Assembly (NCBI RefSeq): GCF_000242255.2
Contig: NC_017033.1
Span: 1,612,001-1,676,000, forward strand
Reading direction: 5' to 3'
DNA from: Frateuria aurantia DSM 6220
Lineage (GTDB): Bacteria > Pseudomonadota > Gammaproteobacteria > Xanthomonadales > Rhodanobacteraceae
DNA length: 64,000 bases
Both the position numbers and the translations under genes were made by a program. The notes under the pieces were generated by a model that was not told the origin of the DNA, did no database searches, and saw only the letters and a program-made list of their open reading frames with translations. Shown piece by piece: positions 15,342 to 48,419 of this stretch (within the stretch, counting starts at the first letter, position 1; every line of letters starts with the position of its first letter).

Positions 15342-16865
15342 TTGGCGTTTGCAGCATCAGGGACGGCCCGTGGCGGCCGGCAGGCAGCTCGCTGGATGCT
15401 GCTGATAAGCTGTTGGCTGACGGCGCCGCTGGCGGCCCGGCAGGAGCTGGCCGAACGGCCGGGGCCTGCTCTCAGCTTCGATCAGGCCACCGAGGTGCTG
15501 CTGCAGCGCTCGGACAGCGTGCGTGGCGATGCCATGGGCCTGCAGGCGGCTCGCGATCAGGTCCGTGCCGTACGTGGCCTGATGTTGCCTTCGGTGAGTC
15601 TGGATGTGCTGGCCCTGCGTTACCAGAAGACCTATGACGTGTCGTTGCATGATCTGCAGCAGACCGGAGGATCGGTGGCCGACCAACTGCTGGGTGGTCT
15701 GCCCGGGGTGACTCCGGGGGCGGCCTCCAGTGCCGTGGACTCGGTCACCAGTGCCTTGCAGCAGGCCTTGCCCGGGGTATTCGGTGCCTTGCCGAGGCAT
15801 GTGAAGCTGCAGTTCCAGCAAAATCTGGTCAGTCCCAATCTGACCGTGGTCCAGCCGATCTATATGGGCGGGGCGATCCGCTCGACCCAGGCGGCCGCAG
15901 AGGCCGCCGCCGCCGCGGCCAGTGCCCATGGCGAAGCCGGCGTGGAGCAGCAGCGTCTGCTTCTGGTCCAGGCCTATTTCGGCCAGGCCTTGGCCGAACA
16001 GGCCGTGAACGTCGCGCAACAAGATCTGGACGGCTACGAGCATCATCTTTCCGATGCCCGCAAGCTGGAACAGCAGGGGGTGATCAGCCACCTCAGGACG
16101 ATGGAGATGACGGTGGCCCGTGACGCGGCGGCCCGGCAGCTGCTGCGGGCCCAGGGTGAGCTGAAAACCTCGCGTGACGTGCTGGCGGTACTGCTGCATC
16201 AGCCGGGTGCCGTGCAGCTGCGTACGGCCTTGTTCGTCAATCGTCTGGGGCCCGGCAGCACGCAGTCGTTTCTGGACGCGACCGAACAGGGTCAGCCACG
16301 TCTGCAGGAGGCCGATGCCGGGGTCGATCTGGCGCGGCAGGGCATCCGCATGGCCAGGGCCGCCTTTCTGCCCAAACTCTATGCCTTCGGCTCCTACAAC
16401 ATGAATCGCGATCATGCCTTGCCGACCCAGCCGGACTGGGTGGTGGGGCTGGGCCTGCATTACACCTTGAATTCGCCGGTGGACCGTCGCGCCAGTCTGA
16501 GTGTGGCGCGTGCTCGCGAGGGGCAGGCCGAAGCACGCCGTGACCAGCTGCGACAGGACTTGCGGACCAGCGTGCTGCGGGCCTACGACATGCTCGACAC
16601 GGCGCGGCTGGAGTATCTCTCGCTGTCCAGTTCGCAAGCCGCGGCCGACGAAAATCTGCGGGTGCATGCGGTGGCATTCCGGGAAGGCGAGGATACCGCC
16701 GCCGAGCTGATCGAGGCGCGTAACCGGCGCTCCCAGGTCCAGCTGCAACGGGCCGCCGCCGCCTATCAATATGACCTGACCTTGGCCGGCCTGCTGCTGG
16801 CCAGCGGTCAGGGCGAGCATTTCGATGATTATCTGCGGCGTGCCGACAGGGAGAATGTGCAGTGA
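15342..16865 (+). CDS. TolC-family outer-membrane efflux protein
   Basis: The 507-residue product has a signal peptide with a basic start (RGGRQAAR) and a hydrophobic core (MLLISCWLTAPLAA). Two outer-membrane-efflux repeats follow, each beginning with a helical segment (LSFDQATEVLLQRSDSV; later GQPRLQEADAGVDLARQGIRMARAAFLPKL). The start is TTG at 15342, with GAGGAG 6 bases upstream. An ATG at 15396 would leave the signal peptide without its basic end. It is the first gene of a three-gene operon with an HlyD protein and a double ABC-2 permease, with a 4-base overlap to the next gene, and should form the exit channel of that export system. Confidence 0.92.
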   Translation: MAFAASGTARGGRQAARWMLLISCWLTAPLAARQELAERPGPALSFDQATEVLLQRSDSVRGDAMGLQAARDQVRAVRGLMLPSVSLDVLALRYQKTYDVSLHDLQQTGGSVADQLLGGLPGVTPGAASSAVDSVTSALQQALPGVFGALPRHVKLQFQQNLVSPNLTVVQPIYMGGAIRSTQAAAEAAAAAASAHGEAGVEQQRLLLVQAYFGQALAEQAVNVAQQDLDGYEHHLSDARKLEQQGVISHLRTMEMTVARDAAARQLLRAQGELKTSRDVLAVLLHQPGAVQLRTALFVNRLGPGSTQSFLDATEQGQPRLQEADAGVDLARQGIRMARAAFLPKLYAFGSYNMNRDHALPTQPDWVVGLGLHYTLNSPVDRRASLSVARAREGQAEARRDQLRQDLRTSVLRAYDMLDTARLEYLSLSSSQAAADENLRVHAVAFREGEDTAAELIEARNRRSQVQLQRAAAAYQYDLTLAGLLLASGQGEHFDDYLRRADRENVQ

Positions 16866-17875
16866 GTGGCGATCAGACGTTTGCCGGCTATTCACGCCGC
16901 GCCTTGATCCTGACCTTGGTGGTGGTACTGGTCGCTGCCGGCCTGATCGGCTGGGGCATCGTGCTGGCGCTGCGACCGGCACCGCTGCAGCTGCAGGGCA
17001 TGGTCGATACCCGTCCCATCAATATCGCCACCAAACTGCCCAGCCGGATCCATCAGCTGCTGGTGCACGAGGGTGAGCCGGTCAAGGCCGGCCAGGTCCT
17101 GGCCTTGCTGGACAGTCCGGAGCTGATGGCCAAGACCGAGCAGGCCGCCAGCGCGCTGACGGGGGCCGAGGCCCTGCGCCAGCGCACGGATATCGGCCCC
17201 CGCAAGGAGGATATCGCCTCGCTGCGGGCTGCCTGGCAGGCTGCTCTGGCCAGTCAGGCCCTGGCCAGCCGCACGGCCGAGCGGGCCCGGGTGCTGTTTG
17301 CCGAGGGCGTGATCGCGGCCCAGCGCCGTGACGAGGCCGTGGCGGCGGAGGCCGTCGCACACCAGCATGCGCTGCTGTCGCAATCACAGTACCAGCGGGG
17401 CCTTGCTGGCGGGCGAGAGGAAGATCGGCGGGTAGCCAGTGCCCAGGTGCAGATCGCGCAGGCGGGAGTGCAGGAAACCCGGGCCTTGCATCAGGAGATC
17501 CGGCTGGTGGCGCCGGTGGACGGTGAAATCGATCAGTCCTTCGGCAATCCCGGCGAGGTCGTCCTCAGCTCGATACCGATCTTCACCCTGCTGGACATGC
17601 ATGATCTGTGGGTGGTGCTGAATGTGCCAGAGAATGTATTCCATGGCTTGAAGCTGGGCACGGAAGTGGAAGGCACGATTCCGGCGCTGGACGATCGACG
17701 GATCCGGTTCCGGGTCAGCTATATCCGTCCGCAAGCTGATTTCGCGATCTGGAGAGCGACCCGCCAGTCCTCGGGTTACGACATGCGCAGCTTCGAAATC
17801 CACCTGACTCCGGTCACGCCGGTGGCCGGGCTGCGTCCCGGCATGAGTGCCCTGTTCGACTGGCCTCGGTCCTGA
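16862..17875 (+). CDS. HlyD/EmrA-type periplasmic adaptor
   Basis: The 337-residue membrane-fusion protein starts at GTG, overlapping the TolC stop (GTGA). One N-terminal membrane helix (about 14-37) is followed by a lipoyl half-motif (INIATKLPSRIHQLLVHEGEPVKAGQVLALLDSPEL), a helical hairpin rich in Ala, Arg and Glu (about 85-215) and the second lipoyl half with VAPVDGEIDQSFGNPGEVV. A barrel domain follows with GTEVEGTIPALDDRRIRFRVSYI. This is the YhiI/EmrA type that bridges an inner-membrane pump to TolC. The next gene, the permease, begins 4 bp after its stop. Confidence 0.93.
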   Translation: MSGDQTFAGYSRRALILTLVVVLVAAGLIGWGIVLALRPAPLQLQGMVDTRPINIATKLPSRIHQLLVHEGEPVKAGQVLALLDSPELMAKTEQAASALTGAEALRQRTDIGPRKEDIASLRAAWQAALASQALASRTAERARVLFAEGVIAAQRRDEAVAAEAVAHQHALLSQSQYQRGLAGGREEDRRVASAQVQIAQAGVQETRALHQEIRLVAPVDGEIDQSFGNPGEVVLSSIPIFTLLDMHDLWVVLNVPENVFHGLKLGTEVEGTIPALDDRRIRFRVSYIRPQADFAIWRATRQSSGYDMRSFEIHLTPVTPVAGLRPGMSALFDWPRS

Positions 17876-17879
17876 GCCG

Positions 17880-20189
17880 ATGAGCGGGCAGGCAGTGCGC
17901 GGCGGCCCGGCCATCCTGGCGGCTTTGCGGGCCGAGGCGGGCTATCTTGGCGGCAGTCGCTGGGACATGACGGTGATGTGGCTGCTGCCGCTGCTGACCT
18001 TTGTCGTTGCGGCCAGCATGTTCTGGCAGGGCAGCTTCCGGCAGATTCCGGTGGCGGTGGTCGATCACGATCATTCGGCACTGAGCCGGGTCGTGCTGGA
18101 GGCCGTGCTGGCCGATCCACGGCTGCGACTGATGCCGGTACACGATGATGATGCGCAGGCTTCAGCCGAGCTGCGGGCAGCCCGGCTGTTTGCGGTCCTG
18201 CCCTTGCCGGCCGGACTGGAGCGCGCGGCAGTGCGGCGGGAAGATATCCGTCTGGAGCTGGGTCTCAATGCCTCCTACCAGACCGTGGCCTCGCAAGGCG
18301 CGCAGGCCTTGCAAGGCGATGCCCAGTCGGCCATTCGCGAGTTCGTCGCGGCGCGCACGCCGCTGCAGGGCGTGGCCGCGATCCATCATGGCGGGCCCAG
18401 GGTGCAGATCACCCAGGTCGGCAATGGCCAGGCCAGCTTCGAGCGTTTTCTGGAACCCTTGATGCTGGCCGGCATCCTGCACCTGCTGCTGAGTTGCGCC
18501 GTGGTCGGTCAGGTCGGGCGGGTGCTGAAGGAGCCTGGCGGACTGAGCTGGGCGCAAGACGAGTTCGCTGTCACGCTGGTCCGTCTACTGATCCGGATGG
18601 CCTGGCCGACCCTGGTGTTCATGGGCTGGTTCGCGATGATTCCCTTGTGGCTGAGTGCCGTGCGGGGATGGCCGGTCAACGGCCATCTGTGGATGTGGCT
18701 GCTGGGGCAATGGGCCTTGTGCGGGGCCACCTCGGCTATTGCGGCCTTGCTGGTGGCCGGCACCCGCGATATCGATACCGCCTTTTCGATATCCACGGTC
18801 TATGCCGGCTCGGCCATCACCTATTCGAATGGCACGCTGCCGGTATTGCATGCCAGCGCCTTCACCCGGGGCTGGAGCGAGGTGCTGCCCTTCACCCATT
18901 ATCTGGCCATCCAGAACCAGCAGTTCGTGATGGGGTCGGATGCGGCGGCGTCGCTGGGCTCGCTGGTCTATCTGCTGCTGGTGATGCTCTTCGCGCTGTT
19001 GCTGGCCACCTGGCTGTGGACGCGCATGGCCCGCAAGCCGCCTGCTGCTGAAGGCCCGCTGCATTGTGGTCCTGCGCCGGACGAGGGGCGCGTCGGGGTC
19101 GCGATGCTGGCGACATTGACGTCGATCGCTCGGGCCAGGCCACTGATCAGCCTGGCAGTGCTGTCGGTTTTGCTGTACGGCTTCTACTATCCCCAGGCCT
19201 ACCGTTCCCAGGTCAGTGTGAAGTTGCCGGTGGCGGTGGTGGACCAGGATCATTCGGTCTGGTCGCGGCAGTTGATCCGGGCGCTGGATGACACCCGGGC
19301 GGTGCAGGTGTCCAGTACGGCGGGCGATCCGGCCTCGGCCATGCGGCAGCTGCGCAATGGCCAGGTTGACGGTGTGGTGGTGATCTCCCCGCATCTTGAG
19401 GGGACGGTGCTGGACAGTCGGGCAGGGGGGCTGGCCATCTATGTGCCTGCCGCCTACCTGGTGCGGGCACGGGATATCGGTGCGGCGGCAAGCGCCGCGA
19501 TCGCCTCGGTGGCCGGCGAGGTCGCCGAGCCCGCGCTGGAGGCGATTCATCACCGTACGGGTGGCGTGAAGATTCGTCTGGTGCCGATGTACAACCGTGC
19601 CGATGGCTATGGTGGTTATGTGGTGCCGGCCGTTGCCGCCGTGATCCTGCACCAGACCTTGCTGTTTGCCACCGCGATGCTGATCGCCCTGCGCCGCGAG
19701 CAGTCAGCCCGTTGGCGGATGCGGGCCGGCGGCCTGCTGGGATGCTGGCTGGGTCTCAGTTTGATCGGCTGCCTGACCGGTGGATTCCTGTACGGCTTCG
19801 TGTTCTGGTTCCAGGACTTTCCGCGGATGGGCAATCCCTGGGCGCTGCTGCTGACCTTGCCCTTGTTCGTGGCGACGGTAGCGGCCCTGGGCCTGTGGCT
19901 GGGCAGTTTCTTCGAGCGATCCGATCGCGCGGTGCAGGTGCTGGCAGGCACTTCGGTGCTGCTGTTCTTTCTGGGCGGCGTATCCTGGCCGCTGTTCGCG
20001 ATGCCCGGCTGGCTGGCCTGGCTGTCATCATGGCTGACCACCACGGTGGGCATGCAGTTACTGGTGCAGCTGAGTTCCGATGGGGCCTCGCTGACCGAGA
20101 GCTGGTCCTGGCTGCTGCGACTGGCGGGGCTGTGCCTGTTTCTGATGATCGCGGCGGGCTGGCGTCTGATTGATCGCAAGGCGACATGA
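17880..20189 (+). CDS. Double ABC-2-type permease (two fused halves), no ATPase domain
   Basis: The 769-residue membrane protein consists of two ABC-2 permease units of the YhhJ/YbhR kind joined in one chain. Half 1 has a helix at about 30-49 and the extracytoplasmic start PVAVVDHDHS (57-66). Half 2 repeats this, with a helix at about 420-437 and PVAVVDQDHS (450-459). Each half ends in five or six helices (about 190-380 and 600-765). No Walker A, signature or Walker B motif is present, and no ABC ATPase gene adjoins the operon. The ATG at 17880 is chosen over a start at 17847, which would overlap the HlyD gene. In the E. coli YhiI-RbbA-YhhJ system the ATPase RbbA supplies energy; here the source is unknown. 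Cargo is also unknown. Confidence 0.88.
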   Translation: MSGQAVRGGPAILAALRAEAGYLGGSRWDMTVMWLLPLLTFVVAASMFWQGSFRQIPVAVVDHDHSALSRVVLEAVLADPRLRLMPVHDDDAQASAELRAARLFAVLPLPAGLERAAVRREDIRLELGLNASYQTVASQGAQALQGDAQSAIREFVAARTPLQGVAAIHHGGPRVQITQVGNGQASFERFLEPLMLAGILHLLLSCAVVGQVGRVLKEPGGLSWAQDEFAVTLVRLLIRMAWPTLVFMGWFAMIPLWLSAVRGWPVNGHLWMWLLGQWALCGATSAIAALLVAGTRDIDTAFSISTVYAGSAITYSNGTLPVLHASAFTRGWSEVLPFTHYLAIQNQQFVMGSDAAASLGSLVYLLLVMLFALLLATWLWTRMARKPPAAEGPLHCGPAPDEGRVGVAMLATLTSIARARPLISLAVLSVLLYGFYYPQAYRSQVSVKLPVAVVDQDHSVWSRQLIRALDDTRAVQVSSTAGDPASAMRQLRNGQVDGVVVISPHLEGTVLDSRAGGLAIYVPAAYLVRARDIGAAASAAIASVAGEVAEPALEAIHHRTGGVKIRLVPMYNRADGYGGYVVPAVAAVILHQTLLFATAMLIALRREQSARWRMRAGGLLGCWLGLSLIGCLTGGFLYGFVFWFQDFPRMGNPWALLLTLPLFVATVAALGLWLGSFFERSDRAVQVLAGTSVLLFFLGGVSWPLFAMPGWLAWLSSWLTTTVGMQLLVQLSSDGASLTESWSWLLRLAGLCLFLMIAAGWRLIDRKAT

Positions 20190-44966: not shown

Positions 44967-44988
44967 CTTTGTGCAAGGAATCGTGAAA

Positions 44989-46722
44989 ATGCAAGCCATT
45001 GCCGGGGCCGCGGCCTGGTTGAAAGACCAGCGCCGGACGGTCAAGTCCCATCTGCAGCGCGCCTTGCTGGTCGGCGCGCTGGGTACGGCCTTGTTGGCCG
45101 TCCAGTCCTGGCTGTTGGCCTGGGGTCTGAATCAGGTCATTTTTCTGCATGCCCCGGCCCGTCGTCTGTGGCCGGCCCTGCTGGGCATAAGCGCCCTGGC
45201 GCTGGCGCGCTGGGGTCTGGGCTGGCTGGGACGTCGCTGCAGTCAGGCGGCCGGTGCTGCCGTGGTACTGCGCATGCGCCAGCAGCTGCTGGCCAAGATC
45301 CAGCGACTGGGGCCAGCCTGGATCGCGCATCGTGACAGCGGCGAGCTGGTTACCCGTGTCGTCGATGGCGTGGAAACCCTGGGGCCATATTTCGGACGCT
45401 ATCTGCCCCAGGTCTCGGCAGCAGGACTCTATCCGCTGGTGATTCTGGTTGCAGTGTTTCCCGCCGACTGGGTCGCCGGACTGACCTTGCTGGTTACGGC
45501 GCCGCTGATTCCGGTCTTTATGGTGCTGCTGGGCCGGCTGGCCGAGCAGGCCAGTCAACGACGCTGGCAGATGCTGACACGGCTCGGCTCGCAATTCATG
45601 GACGTGCTGCAGGGGCTGGGCACGCTGCGCCTGTTCGGGGCGGCACAGGCGGCTCGCCAGCGGCTGGCCGGGGCGGGCGAGGGCTACCGGCGCGAAACCA
45701 TGGGGGTGCTGCGGGTCGCCTTTCTGTCCTCGCTGGTGCTGGAGTTCTTTGCTACCGTCAGCATCGCCGTGGTTGCGGTGCTGGTCGGGTTTCGCTTGTT
45801 CTTCGGTCACGAAGTGTTTTTGTTCGGCATGTTCGTGCTGCTGCTGGCGCCCGAATATTTTCTGCCGTTGCGCGCAATGGGTGCATTGCGACATGCCAAG
45901 ATGGACGCCGTCGCTTTTGCCGAGGATGCGGTCAAGCTGCTGGCCGAGGACGAGCCCGAGCCGGCGCGTGGCAAGGCCAGGCCTGGCGGCGAGGCGATCA
46001 CCGTCACCTTGCGCGGGGTGACGTTCGAGCATGATGGTGGCCGTGGTGGCCTGCGCGATCTGGATCTGACGATTGCCGGCGGCTGCACCCTGGCCTTGGT
46101 CGGCCCCAGTGGTGCCGGCAAGAGCACGCTGTTGAGTCTGTTGCTGGCGCAGAGCCGGCCCAGTGCCGGCAGCCTCCTGATCAATGGCGTGCCCTTGGCT
46201 GAGGTGGATCTGACCTGGTGGCGCCAGCAACTGAGCTGGGTGCCGCAAAAGCCGCGGCTGTTTATCGGCAGCGTGGCGGACAATCTGCGCATCGCGCGGC
46301 CCGACGCCACTCAGTCCGAGCTGGAGGCTGCGGCGAGCAAGGCCTGTCTGCTGCCGGTGATCGAGGCCTTGCCGCAAGGCTGGGATACCCCTCTGGGCGA
46401 GCAGGGCTACGGGCTTTCGGGCGGCGAAGCCCAGCGTCTGGCGCTGGCCCGTGCCTTTCTGCGAAATACGCCGGTACTGATTCTGGACGAGCCTTGCCAG
46501 GCACTGGATGGTGATACTGCGGCCCGGGTCGAGCAGGCCTTGCAGGCTTACGGTCGCGGCCGGACGGTGATCCAGGCCGTGCACCGGCTGGAGCAGGCAC
46601 GGCAGTCGGATGCCATTGCCGTGCTCGAGCATGGCCGGCTTGCCGCCTTCGGCCGACATGACGTCCTGCTCGCCGAAGGCGGGCTCTATGCACAACTGTG
46701 GCAGCAGGGAGTTCTGGCATGA
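44989..46722 (+). CDS. cydD: CydDC thiol exporter subunit CydD
   Basis: The 577-residue protein is a half-transporter with about six N-terminal helices (20-310) and an ABC ATPase domain: Walker A GPSGAGKSTLL, signature LSGGEAQRLALARAFL, Walker B VLILDEPCQALD. CydDC exports glutathione and cysteine to the periplasm and is needed to assemble cytochrome bd. The ATG at 44989 has AAGGA 9 bases upstream; a GTG at 44971 lies close to the terminator and is less likely. It overlaps cydC by 4 bases. Confidence 0.95.
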   Translation: MQAIAGAAAWLKDQRRTVKSHLQRALLVGALGTALLAVQSWLLAWGLNQVIFLHAPARRLWPALLGISALALARWGLGWLGRRCSQAAGAAVVLRMRQQLLAKIQRLGPAWIAHRDSGELVTRVVDGVETLGPYFGRYLPQVSAAGLYPLVILVAVFPADWVAGLTLLVTAPLIPVFMVLLGRLAEQASQRRWQMLTRLGSQFMDVLQGLGTLRLFGAAQAARQRLAGAGEGYRRETMGVLRVAFLSSLVLEFFATVSIAVVAVLVGFRLFFGHEVFLFGMFVLLLAPEYFLPLRAMGALRHAKMDAVAFAEDAVKLLAEDEPEPARGKARPGGEAITVTLRGVTFEHDGGRGGLRDLDLTIAGGCTLALVGPSGAGKSTLLSLLLAQSRPSAGSLLINGVPLAEVDLTWWRQQLSWVPQKPRLFIGSVADNLRIARPDATQSELEAAASKACLLPVIEALPQGWDTPLGEQGYGLSGGEAQRLALARAFLRNTPVLILDEPCQALDGDTAARVEQALQAYGRGRTVIQAVHRLEQARQSDAIAVLEHGRLAAFGRHDVLLAEGGLYAQLWQQGVLA

Positions 46723-48419
46723 AGGCGCGGCACGAGACGAGTTCCTGGTCACTGTTCTGGCGGGTGATCGGGCTGCTGTGGCCGTACAAGCGCTGGATAG
46801 CACTGGGTCTGTTCTGCTCGCTGGCGGCCTCGCTGTCAGGTATTGCTCTGCTGGCGGTGTCCGGCTGGTTTCTGTCCAGCATGGCCTTGGCCGGTGTCGC
46901 CGGCGCGACCATGAATTATTTCACGCCCTCGGCGATCATTCGCGGCCTCGCCCTGGTCCGTATCAGTGGCCGTTATGCGGAACGCTTGATCAATCATGAT
47001 GTGACGCTGCGGGCCTTGGCCGGGCTGAGGCTGTGGCTGTACGACCGATTGTGGCCGTTGAGTCCCGGGCAGACCGCGATGCTGGGCCACAGCCAGCTGT
47101 TTTCCCGCATGCGGGCGGATATCGACCGGCTGGAGCATGTCTATTTGGCGGTATTCATGCCGGCGGTGATGGCCTTGATCGGCTTTCCGCTGATCCTGTG
47201 GGTGACAGCCGGCTATCTCGGGGCTGCCGCGATGGCGACCGGACTGATGGCCTTGCTGGCCGGCGTGGTCCTGCCGCTGTGGGCGCAGCGCCGCAGTCGC
47301 GCGACCGGCGAGGCGCTGGTCAGTGCCGAGGCCGGCCTGCGGCAGCAGGTGGGCGATATCATCCTTGGCGCGGCCGAGCTGGAATTGTATGGCCAGTCAG
47401 CCGCTGCTGCCGCACGGGTAGAGGCCTTGAGCCGGCAGCAGGAGGATCGCAAGGCCCGGCTGGATTCGGTACAGTCCGCCGGCAGCGGGCTGGTGCCCTG
47501 GGCGGCGGCCACGGCCACGGCCTGGACGCTGTGGCTGGGTGCCGGTGCCTTGGGCGTCGGACATCTGGCCGGCCCGGACGTGGCCATGCTGTGTCTGCTG
47601 GCGATGGGGGGCTTCGAGTTGATCGGTCCGCTGCCGGAGGCCATGAGTCAATTGGTGGCCAGCCTGGCGGCGGCGCGCCGGGTGTTTGAGCTTGCCGACC
47701 AGAGTCCCCGCATTCCGGCCGCGTCGGGTGCGGCGCCGGGCGTACCTGCCCGGCCCTCGATCCGTTTCGAGCATGTGGCCATGCGATACGGTGATCATAG
47801 CCCTCCGGTTCTCACGGATTTCGATCTCGAGCTGCCGGCGGGGAGGCGCGTGGCCTTGCTGGGTCCGTCCGGTGCCGGCAAGAGCAGTGTGCTGCAGGTC
47901 CTTCTGCGTTTCGAGCCGATCCAGCAAGGGCGCATCGTGATTGACGGCCTCGATCTTGCCGCCCTCGACCCCGAGGCCTGGCGTTCGCGTGTTTCAGTGG
48001 TGGAGCAGCGCACTCATATTTTCAATGCCAGCCTGCGTGACAACTTGCTGATCGCCCGTCCGGGGGCCAGCGAGGCGCAATTGCAGGCGGCGCTGGACGG
48101 CGCCCAGCTGCAGGGTTTCGTCGCCGGCCTGCCGGAAGGGCTGGAAACCTGGCTGGGCGAGGGCGGTGCCCTGATTTCCGGCGGCGAAGGCCGGCGAGTG
48201 GCGATTGCCCGGGCCTTGCTGGCAGATCGCCCGGTCCTGTTGCTGGACGAGCCGACCGAAGGTCTCGATCCGGCCACGGCTCAATCCTTGCTGGGGGCGC
48301 TGGAGACCTTGACCCGTGGACGCACCGTACTGCTGATCAGTCATCAGCTGGCCGGTCTGCAGCAACTGGTCGAGGCGCGCTACCGATTGGAGCGGGGCCG
48401 CTGCGTCGCCCTCAGCTGA
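46719..48419 (+). CDS. cydC: CydDC thiol exporter subunit CydC
   Basis: The 566-residue partner of CydD has the CydC-type start (FWRVIGLLWPYKRWIALGLFCSL), six helices with AVSGWFLSS and RYAERLINHDVTLRALAGLR, and an ATPase domain with GPSGAGKSSVL, ISGGEGRRVAIARALL (Ile replaces the usual Leu) and VLLLDEPTEGLD. The start overlaps the cydD stop (ATGA). Confidence 0.95.
   Translation: MKARHETSSWSLFWRVIGLLWPYKRWIALGLFCSLAASLSGIALLAVSGWFLSSMALAGVAGATMNYFTPSAIIRGLALVRISGRYAERLINHDVTLRALAGLRLWLYDRLWPLSPGQTAMLGHSQLFSRMRADIDRLEHVYLAVFMPAVMALIGFPLILWVTAGYLGAAAMATGLMALLAGVVLPLWAQRRSRATGEALVSAEAGLRQQVGDIILGAAELELYGQSAAAAARVEALSRQQEDRKARLDSVQSAGSGLVPWAAATATAWTLWLGAGALGVGHLAGPDVAMLCLLAMGGFELIGPLPEAMSQLVASLAAARRVFELADQSPRIPAASGAAPGVPARPSIRFEHVAMRYGDHSPPVLTDFDLELPAGRRVALLGPSGAGKSSVLQVLLRFEPIQQGRIVIDGLDLAALDPEAWRSRVSVVEQRTHIFNASLRDNLLIARPGASEAQLQAALDGAQLQGFVAGLPEGLETWLGEGGALISGGEGRRVAIARALLADRPVLLLDEPTEGLDPATAQSLLGALETLTRGRTVLLISHQLAGLQQLVEARYRLERGRCVALS

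Follow-up and report, generated by a model that had tools for sequence, protein, structure and literature searches.

Among the exporters that join a membrane domain of the ATP-binding cassette (ABC) class to an outer-membrane channel, Escherichia coli YbhG-YbhF-YbhS-YbhR, an ABC-2 tripartite multidrug exporter, combines an HlyD adaptor with two different ABC-2 permeases of common periplasmic domain and fold, and E. coli YhiI-RbbA-YhhJ likewise has an HlyD adaptor and two ABC-2 membrane domains. Here I describe an operon of Frateuria aurantia DSM 6220, located in a stretch of 64,000 nucleotides that was analysed as a whole (the window; positions 1,612,001 to 1,676,000 of NC_017033.1), which encodes a TolC channel, an HlyD adaptor and one permease chain made of two ABC-2 halves, termed permA and permB. 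With the ATP-driven ABC-2 tripartite exporters this operon shares the ABC-2 fold and HlyD, whereas it lacks their operon ATPase, their coupling motif and their place in the permease tree. Unlike the window operon, YbhGFSR encodes a double ABC ATPase, YbhF, between adaptor and permeases, and YbhS and YbhR, unlike permA and permB, retain the coupling motif and sit in the ATPase-linked clade. In RbbA, unlike in the window permease, the membrane domain is fused to two ABC ATPase domains; among NCBIfam models permB is best matched by the permease part at the C-terminus of RbbA, and the window permease scores 71.4 bits against the RbbA family NF033858, whose cut-off is 1050, with the permease part alone being matched. 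My reading of these sequences, to which I give a probability of about 0.6, is that the exporter would be an ATP-independent tripartite pump built on a heterodimeric ABC-2 core whose ancestral ATPase has been lost.

By profile score, the nearest ATPase-linked relatives are the HlyD-ATPase-single permease operons of Pseudomonadota, which also pair HlyD with an ABC-2 permease but differ in having one permease gene and one ATPase gene. EmrAB-TolC, of the major facilitator superfamily (MFS), and other proton-driven tripartite pumps combine an adaptor and TolC with an ATP-free inner-membrane transporter and may be similar in mechanism, although the inner-membrane protein of EmrAB-TolC, unlike the window permease, is an unrelated MFS protein. 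YhgE/Pip proteins share a PVAVVDxDHS-type periplasmic domain (the window permease scores 19.7 bits against TIGR03061, with a cut-off of 96.15); they too are ABC-2-like, are single chains of another layout, and are not known to have an ATPase or to belong to an HlyD/TolC operon. In Stenotrophomonas maltophilia D457, the ATPase-free type and the HlyD-ATPase-permease type (near 1.598 Mb) lie at separate loci, and gene numbering suggests that SmaCDEF (Smlt1651-4) is the ATPase-containing locus near 1.598 Mb rather than the ATPase-free operon; the published SmaCDEF primers (PMC11356428) have no site in the S. maltophilia loci examined, and only chance sites in D457.

ATPase-free loci in other genomes

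All loci were scanned with profile hidden Markov models of TolC, HlyD, permA, permB and the ABC ATPase domain, of which the ATPase profile was derived from the ATPases of the host genome itself; as a positive control, this profile detects the ATPase in E. coli YbhGFSR, in YhiI-RbbA-YhhJ (whose operon, as the earlier note on this DNA had said, encodes one) and in the S. maltophilia HlyD-ATPase-permease locus. A scan of genome contigs with the single protein confirmed no close relative, but an alignment-based profile scan of 84,980 genomes returned at least 523, and the best 80 loci, which were retained, all possess both permA and permB while none holds an ATPase inside the operon. Sampling 397 Pseudomonadota genomes gave permB matches of 185 bits or more in 43, and the scores were split by a gap, with loci without an ATPase at or above 185 bits, loci with one at or below 147 bits and nothing between. 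The 41 loci examined above the gap read (TolC-)HlyD-permA-permB without an ATPase, whereas all 19 examined below it read HlyD-ATPase-permease with the ATPase in the operon. Taking together the loci in which both halves are complete, an ABC ATPase lies inside the operon in 0 of 128; one has an ATPase less than 1 kb away, 120 have none in the stretch read, and no ATPase recurs near the loci, plasmid copies included. The window operon and the other 127 define a clade in which permA and permB are adjacent or fused, stand beside HlyD and have no intervening ATPase. The earlier note had named the regular presence of ATPase genes in homologous operons as one finding that would refute it, and this neighbourhood survey turned up none.

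The TolC and HlyD partners are retained in nearly all loci. The family is common, extending to S. maltophilia, Acinetobacter baumannii (where one record has the operon set adjoining serC and gyrA) and enterobacterial plasmids, and annotated plasmid relatives with TolC, HlyD and two permease genes come from Novosphingobium, Sphingomonas and Acinetobacter. Plasmid p01 of Sphingomonas sp. FARSPH carries a second, incomplete copy (TolC and permease pieces on the opposite strand, L041:2535-3976) some 1.7 kb from the intact operon. Closer to home, the system occurs in 4 of 147 genomes of the host's bacterial family, the window genome included, and in the three others a homologue with 36-42% identity to the C-terminal half belongs to an operon of TolC, HlyD and then the halves as two adjacent genes, again without an ATPase. 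TetR or LysR genes stand upstream in 29 of the 128 loci, mostly as one LysR gene beside the Stenotrophomonas loci, and no conserved regulator that might hint at a substrate was found among the 128. The ATPase-free arrangement is thus old, widespread across Pseudomonadota and apparently unstudied: NCBIfam has no model naming an ATPase-free paired ABC-2 family, and no study of an ATPase-free HlyD/ABC-2 pump was found in the open-access literature, a search outside which most subscription journals lie.

Origin, fusion and docking loop of the two halves

In an unrooted maximum-likelihood tree (IQ-TREE) of 42 permA, 42 permB and 24 ATPase-linked permeases, the three sets form separate clades, each on one side of a branch with a Shimodaira-Hasegawa-like approximate likelihood ratio (SH-aLRT) support of 99, and the ATPase-free arrangement has a single origin. 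Groupings within the permA subtree closely resemble those within the permB subtree, which is expected of partners evolving together. Since the tree is unrooted, loss of the ATPase rather than its primary absence is inferred from the coupling motif and the wider ABC family.

The earlier note described a fused permease, and this holds for the window, but not as a general trait: the halves share one reading frame in 7 of 128 loci and are two genes in most relatives. Fused permeases include an Enterobacter protein encoded after HlyD and those of Bradyrhizobium and Terrarubrum, whose gene lies between two HlyD genes; in the rhizobial group (L039, L040, L205, L206) these two HlyD genes differ from each other and TolC is missing. 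The fused window protein groups, in the permB tree, with those of a Comamonas metagenome-assembled genome and an Enterobacter plasmid (98) and the rhizobial fused proteins group elsewhere (99), so that fusion arose at least twice. The fusion is a later change. The pair of HlyD and fused permease is mobile on enterobacterial plasmids, with no adjoining ATPase. Plasmids of Citrobacter, Klebsiella and Enterobacter carry nearly identical versions of this unit, weaker hits (H49-H62) being partial copies, and on Enterobacter pECL_A (L035:9034-12232) it is flanked by insertion sequence elements. The reading frame of permB keeps one and the same relation to that of permA in 110 of 128 loci, and the stop and start codons often overlap, which suggests translational coupling.

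In ABC-2 exporters the first coupling helix sits in the loop between transmembrane (TM) helices 2 and 3. All 24 aligned ATPase-linked permeases carry the motif RExERGTmExLL..P....E...GK..PY or a close version there, in a compared stretch of 32-33 residues. In permA the loop ranges from 24 to 45 residues and many members retain GRElrDGt..W and GKl.PY alone, whereas in permB it is shortened (median 25.5 residues) and the motif is absent from 42 of 42. The window halves were modelled separately in AlphaFold, because a full-length alignment piled permA rows onto permB, and both gave the ABC-2 fold of six TM helices plus a periplasmic domain: permA with a predicted local distance difference test (pLDDT) score of 87.6 and a predicted template modelling (pTM) score of 0.82, permB with 86.8 and 0.77. 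Between TM2 and TM3 the permA model has a four-residue helix and the permB model, whose loop is about 7 residues there, has none. The coupling-helix surface that the earlier note proposed to look for by structure prediction is therefore degenerate in permA and lost in permB. Structure searches matched ABC-2 membrane domains of insect ABCH, human ABCG and ABCA, and NosY (Z up to 21.8), while sequence searches of solved structures gave remote ABC-2 relatives only.

Energy source and rival explanations

I infer a transporter role, a heterodimeric state and work without ATP, as follows. The halves permA and permB have the fold of the membrane domains of a type V (ABC-2) transporter and would pair as an obligate heterodimer, whose partners would be joined in the window protein by a cytoplasmic linker, and the ancestral ATPase would have been lost along with its docking helix. 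The permease would dock to the HlyD adaptor and the TolC channel and carry its substrate, taken up from the inner membrane or the periplasm, out of the cell. That HlyD and TolC are conserved as its partners speaks for export across both membranes, and the conserved loss of the ATPase gene and likewise of the dock speaks against ATP as the fuel; ATP independence is therefore likely. By analogy with the TolC pumps driven by MFS and resistance-nodulation-division (RND) proteins, energy may come from the proton motive force or from a substrate gradient, the proton motive force being the favoured candidate. More tentatively, a single ancient loss of the ATPase may have converted the membrane part of an ABC exporter into such a secondary transporter, a proposal that I hold to be somewhat less likely than not. 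Conserved uncharged polar residues in permB TM2 (Q190 and T191) and tyrosines in TM1 are, speculatively, candidates for a substrate or ion path.

Several points weigh against an ATP-independent pump. A conserved membrane carboxylate was sought as a proton site and found in neither half, and with no membrane-embedded acidic residue conserved in the TM helices of permA or permB, no classical proton antiport site stands out. Given the partial permA loop (GRElrDGt..W....GKl.PY), some cytosolic partner is conceivable, the sequence data would be compatible with a promiscuous ATPase encoded at another site of the genome, and the survey covered Pseudomonadota alone.

The earlier note left a choice between a distant ATPase and another energy source, and this choice is upheld by homologues that lack both the ATPase and its dock, with a housekeeping ATPase acting in trans now the less likely branch. 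Such an ATPase, encoded elsewhere and shared with another ABC-2 transporter, is an unlikely source of power, even though ABC-2 permeases normally need one, the permA TM2-TM3 loop retains an RE...GT-like stretch and GKlxPY, and about 40 other ABC ATPase sites exist in the host genome, because the coupling motif is lost from permB across the whole clade and no ATPase follows the loci onto plasmids or elsewhere. Nor is there an obvious lender: a profile scan of the chromosome gave 53 PF00005 matches, but the genome has no HlyD-ATPase-ABC-2 system from which an ATPase could be borrowed, each remaining PF12698 gene has its own ATPase within about 2 kb, and the ATPases on short open reading frames (ORFs) that could be checked, by eye from sequence and neighbours, mostly have evident partners or known jobs (FtsE-, PstB-, LptB-, SufC- and CcmA-like, for example). 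Co-occurrence with orphan ATPases, proposed as a check in the earlier note, comes down to a single orphan-like protein of 271 aa (chromosome positions 2892893-2893705, no evident permease alongside), which is present in 69 of the 147 family genomes but in two of the four that carry the permease system; it does not track the system, and this distribution rules it out as a dedicated partner.

Still less probable is a gated conduit or membrane-lipid handling complex, in which substrate would flow down its gradient into HlyD-TolC without active pumping; the want of a conserved charged residue embedded in the membrane and the lipid handling of the ABCA, ABCG and ABCH relatives of this fold would suit it, but nearly constant retention of TolC and HlyD is typical of energised export, and the TetR or LysR genes beside some copies are usual for efflux pumps. 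That the operon is an ordinary ATP-driven pump decaying in the window strain, its ATPase lost or moved, could be suspected from its rarity in the host's family, yet the reading frames are intact and conserved and 128 of 128 homologous operons, from many bacterial families and plasmids, likewise have no ATPase, so that the survey refutes this idea and I give it next to no credence. Should these pumps work without ATP, the fold of an ABC transporter would have been turned to secondary transport, a change with a bearing on how substrates are moved by ABC membrane domains and on what the ATPase contributes. Studies of inhibitors or of efflux that take ATP dependence for granted would misjudge such a pump. 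Drive by the proton motive force or a gradient would, if true, set these pumps beside the ABC, RND and MFS types as another energisation class among the tripartite pumps that depend on TolC.

The operon in Frateuria aurantia

The three genes form one tight operon (Table 1). TolC starts with TTG behind a GAGGAG Shine-Dalgarno sequence, as read from the sequence, the GTG start of HlyD overlaps the TolC stop (GTGA), and the permease ATG lies 4 nt past the HlyD stop. Pfam matches bear out the composition given in the earlier note, that is, TolC, HlyD and one 769-residue chain of two ABC-2 halves, each with its own PVAVVDxDHS motif (PVAVVDHDHS at residue 57, PVAVVDQDHS at residue 450), and in NCBIfam the HlyD protein matches PRK03598 (secretion protein HlyD) at 1.1e-37, which falls short of the cut-off. 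The fusion into one frame is genuine, since a stop-free frame of 780 codons has a chance probability of about 1e-8 at such a GC content and both halves have full-length homologues. The linker lies where split relatives have their gene boundary; because each half has six TM helices, its two ends would both be cytoplasmic, on the side of the TM2-TM3 loop, which makes a cytoplasmic linker topologically easy.

Table 1. Features of the exporter operon, in window coordinates.
Feature	Position	Strand	Evidence
TolC-family outer-membrane channel, 507 aa	15342..16865	+	PF02321, E 2.8e-37, two OEP stretches
HlyD-family periplasmic adaptor, 337 aa	16862..17875	+	PF16576, E 2.1e-22
Fused double ABC-2 permease, 769 aa	17880..20189	+	PF12698 (ABC2_membrane_3), two stretches, E 1.6e-62 for the whole protein
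permA half: connecting helix, TM1, periplasmic PVAVVDxDHS domain, TM2-TM6	17880..19083	+	AlphaFold model, alignment
Cytoplasmic linker, permA C-terminus to permB N-terminal connecting helix	19015..19130 (approximate)	+	models
permB half, fold as permA	19086..20189	+	AlphaFold model, alignment

A motif scan of TolC, HlyD and the permease was negative for Walker A, GK[ST] and the ABC signature in all three, and no decayed or frameshifted ATPase was found in the neighbourhood of the operon, in agreement with the earlier note that neither the proteins nor their flanks supply one. The host genome is one complete chromosome of 3,603,458 bases, elsewhere on which no paralogue of the operon was found. 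Upstream, the neighbour is an AIM24/GYF protein on the opposite strand and, downstream, a secretory lipase. The closest ABC ATPases lie 25-28 kb downstream (window 44971-48419) in half-transporter ORFs of 583 and 573 aa, the former with its own ABC_membrane domain and the latter without a Pfam membrane-domain match; these two genes overlap and are perhaps CydDC-like.

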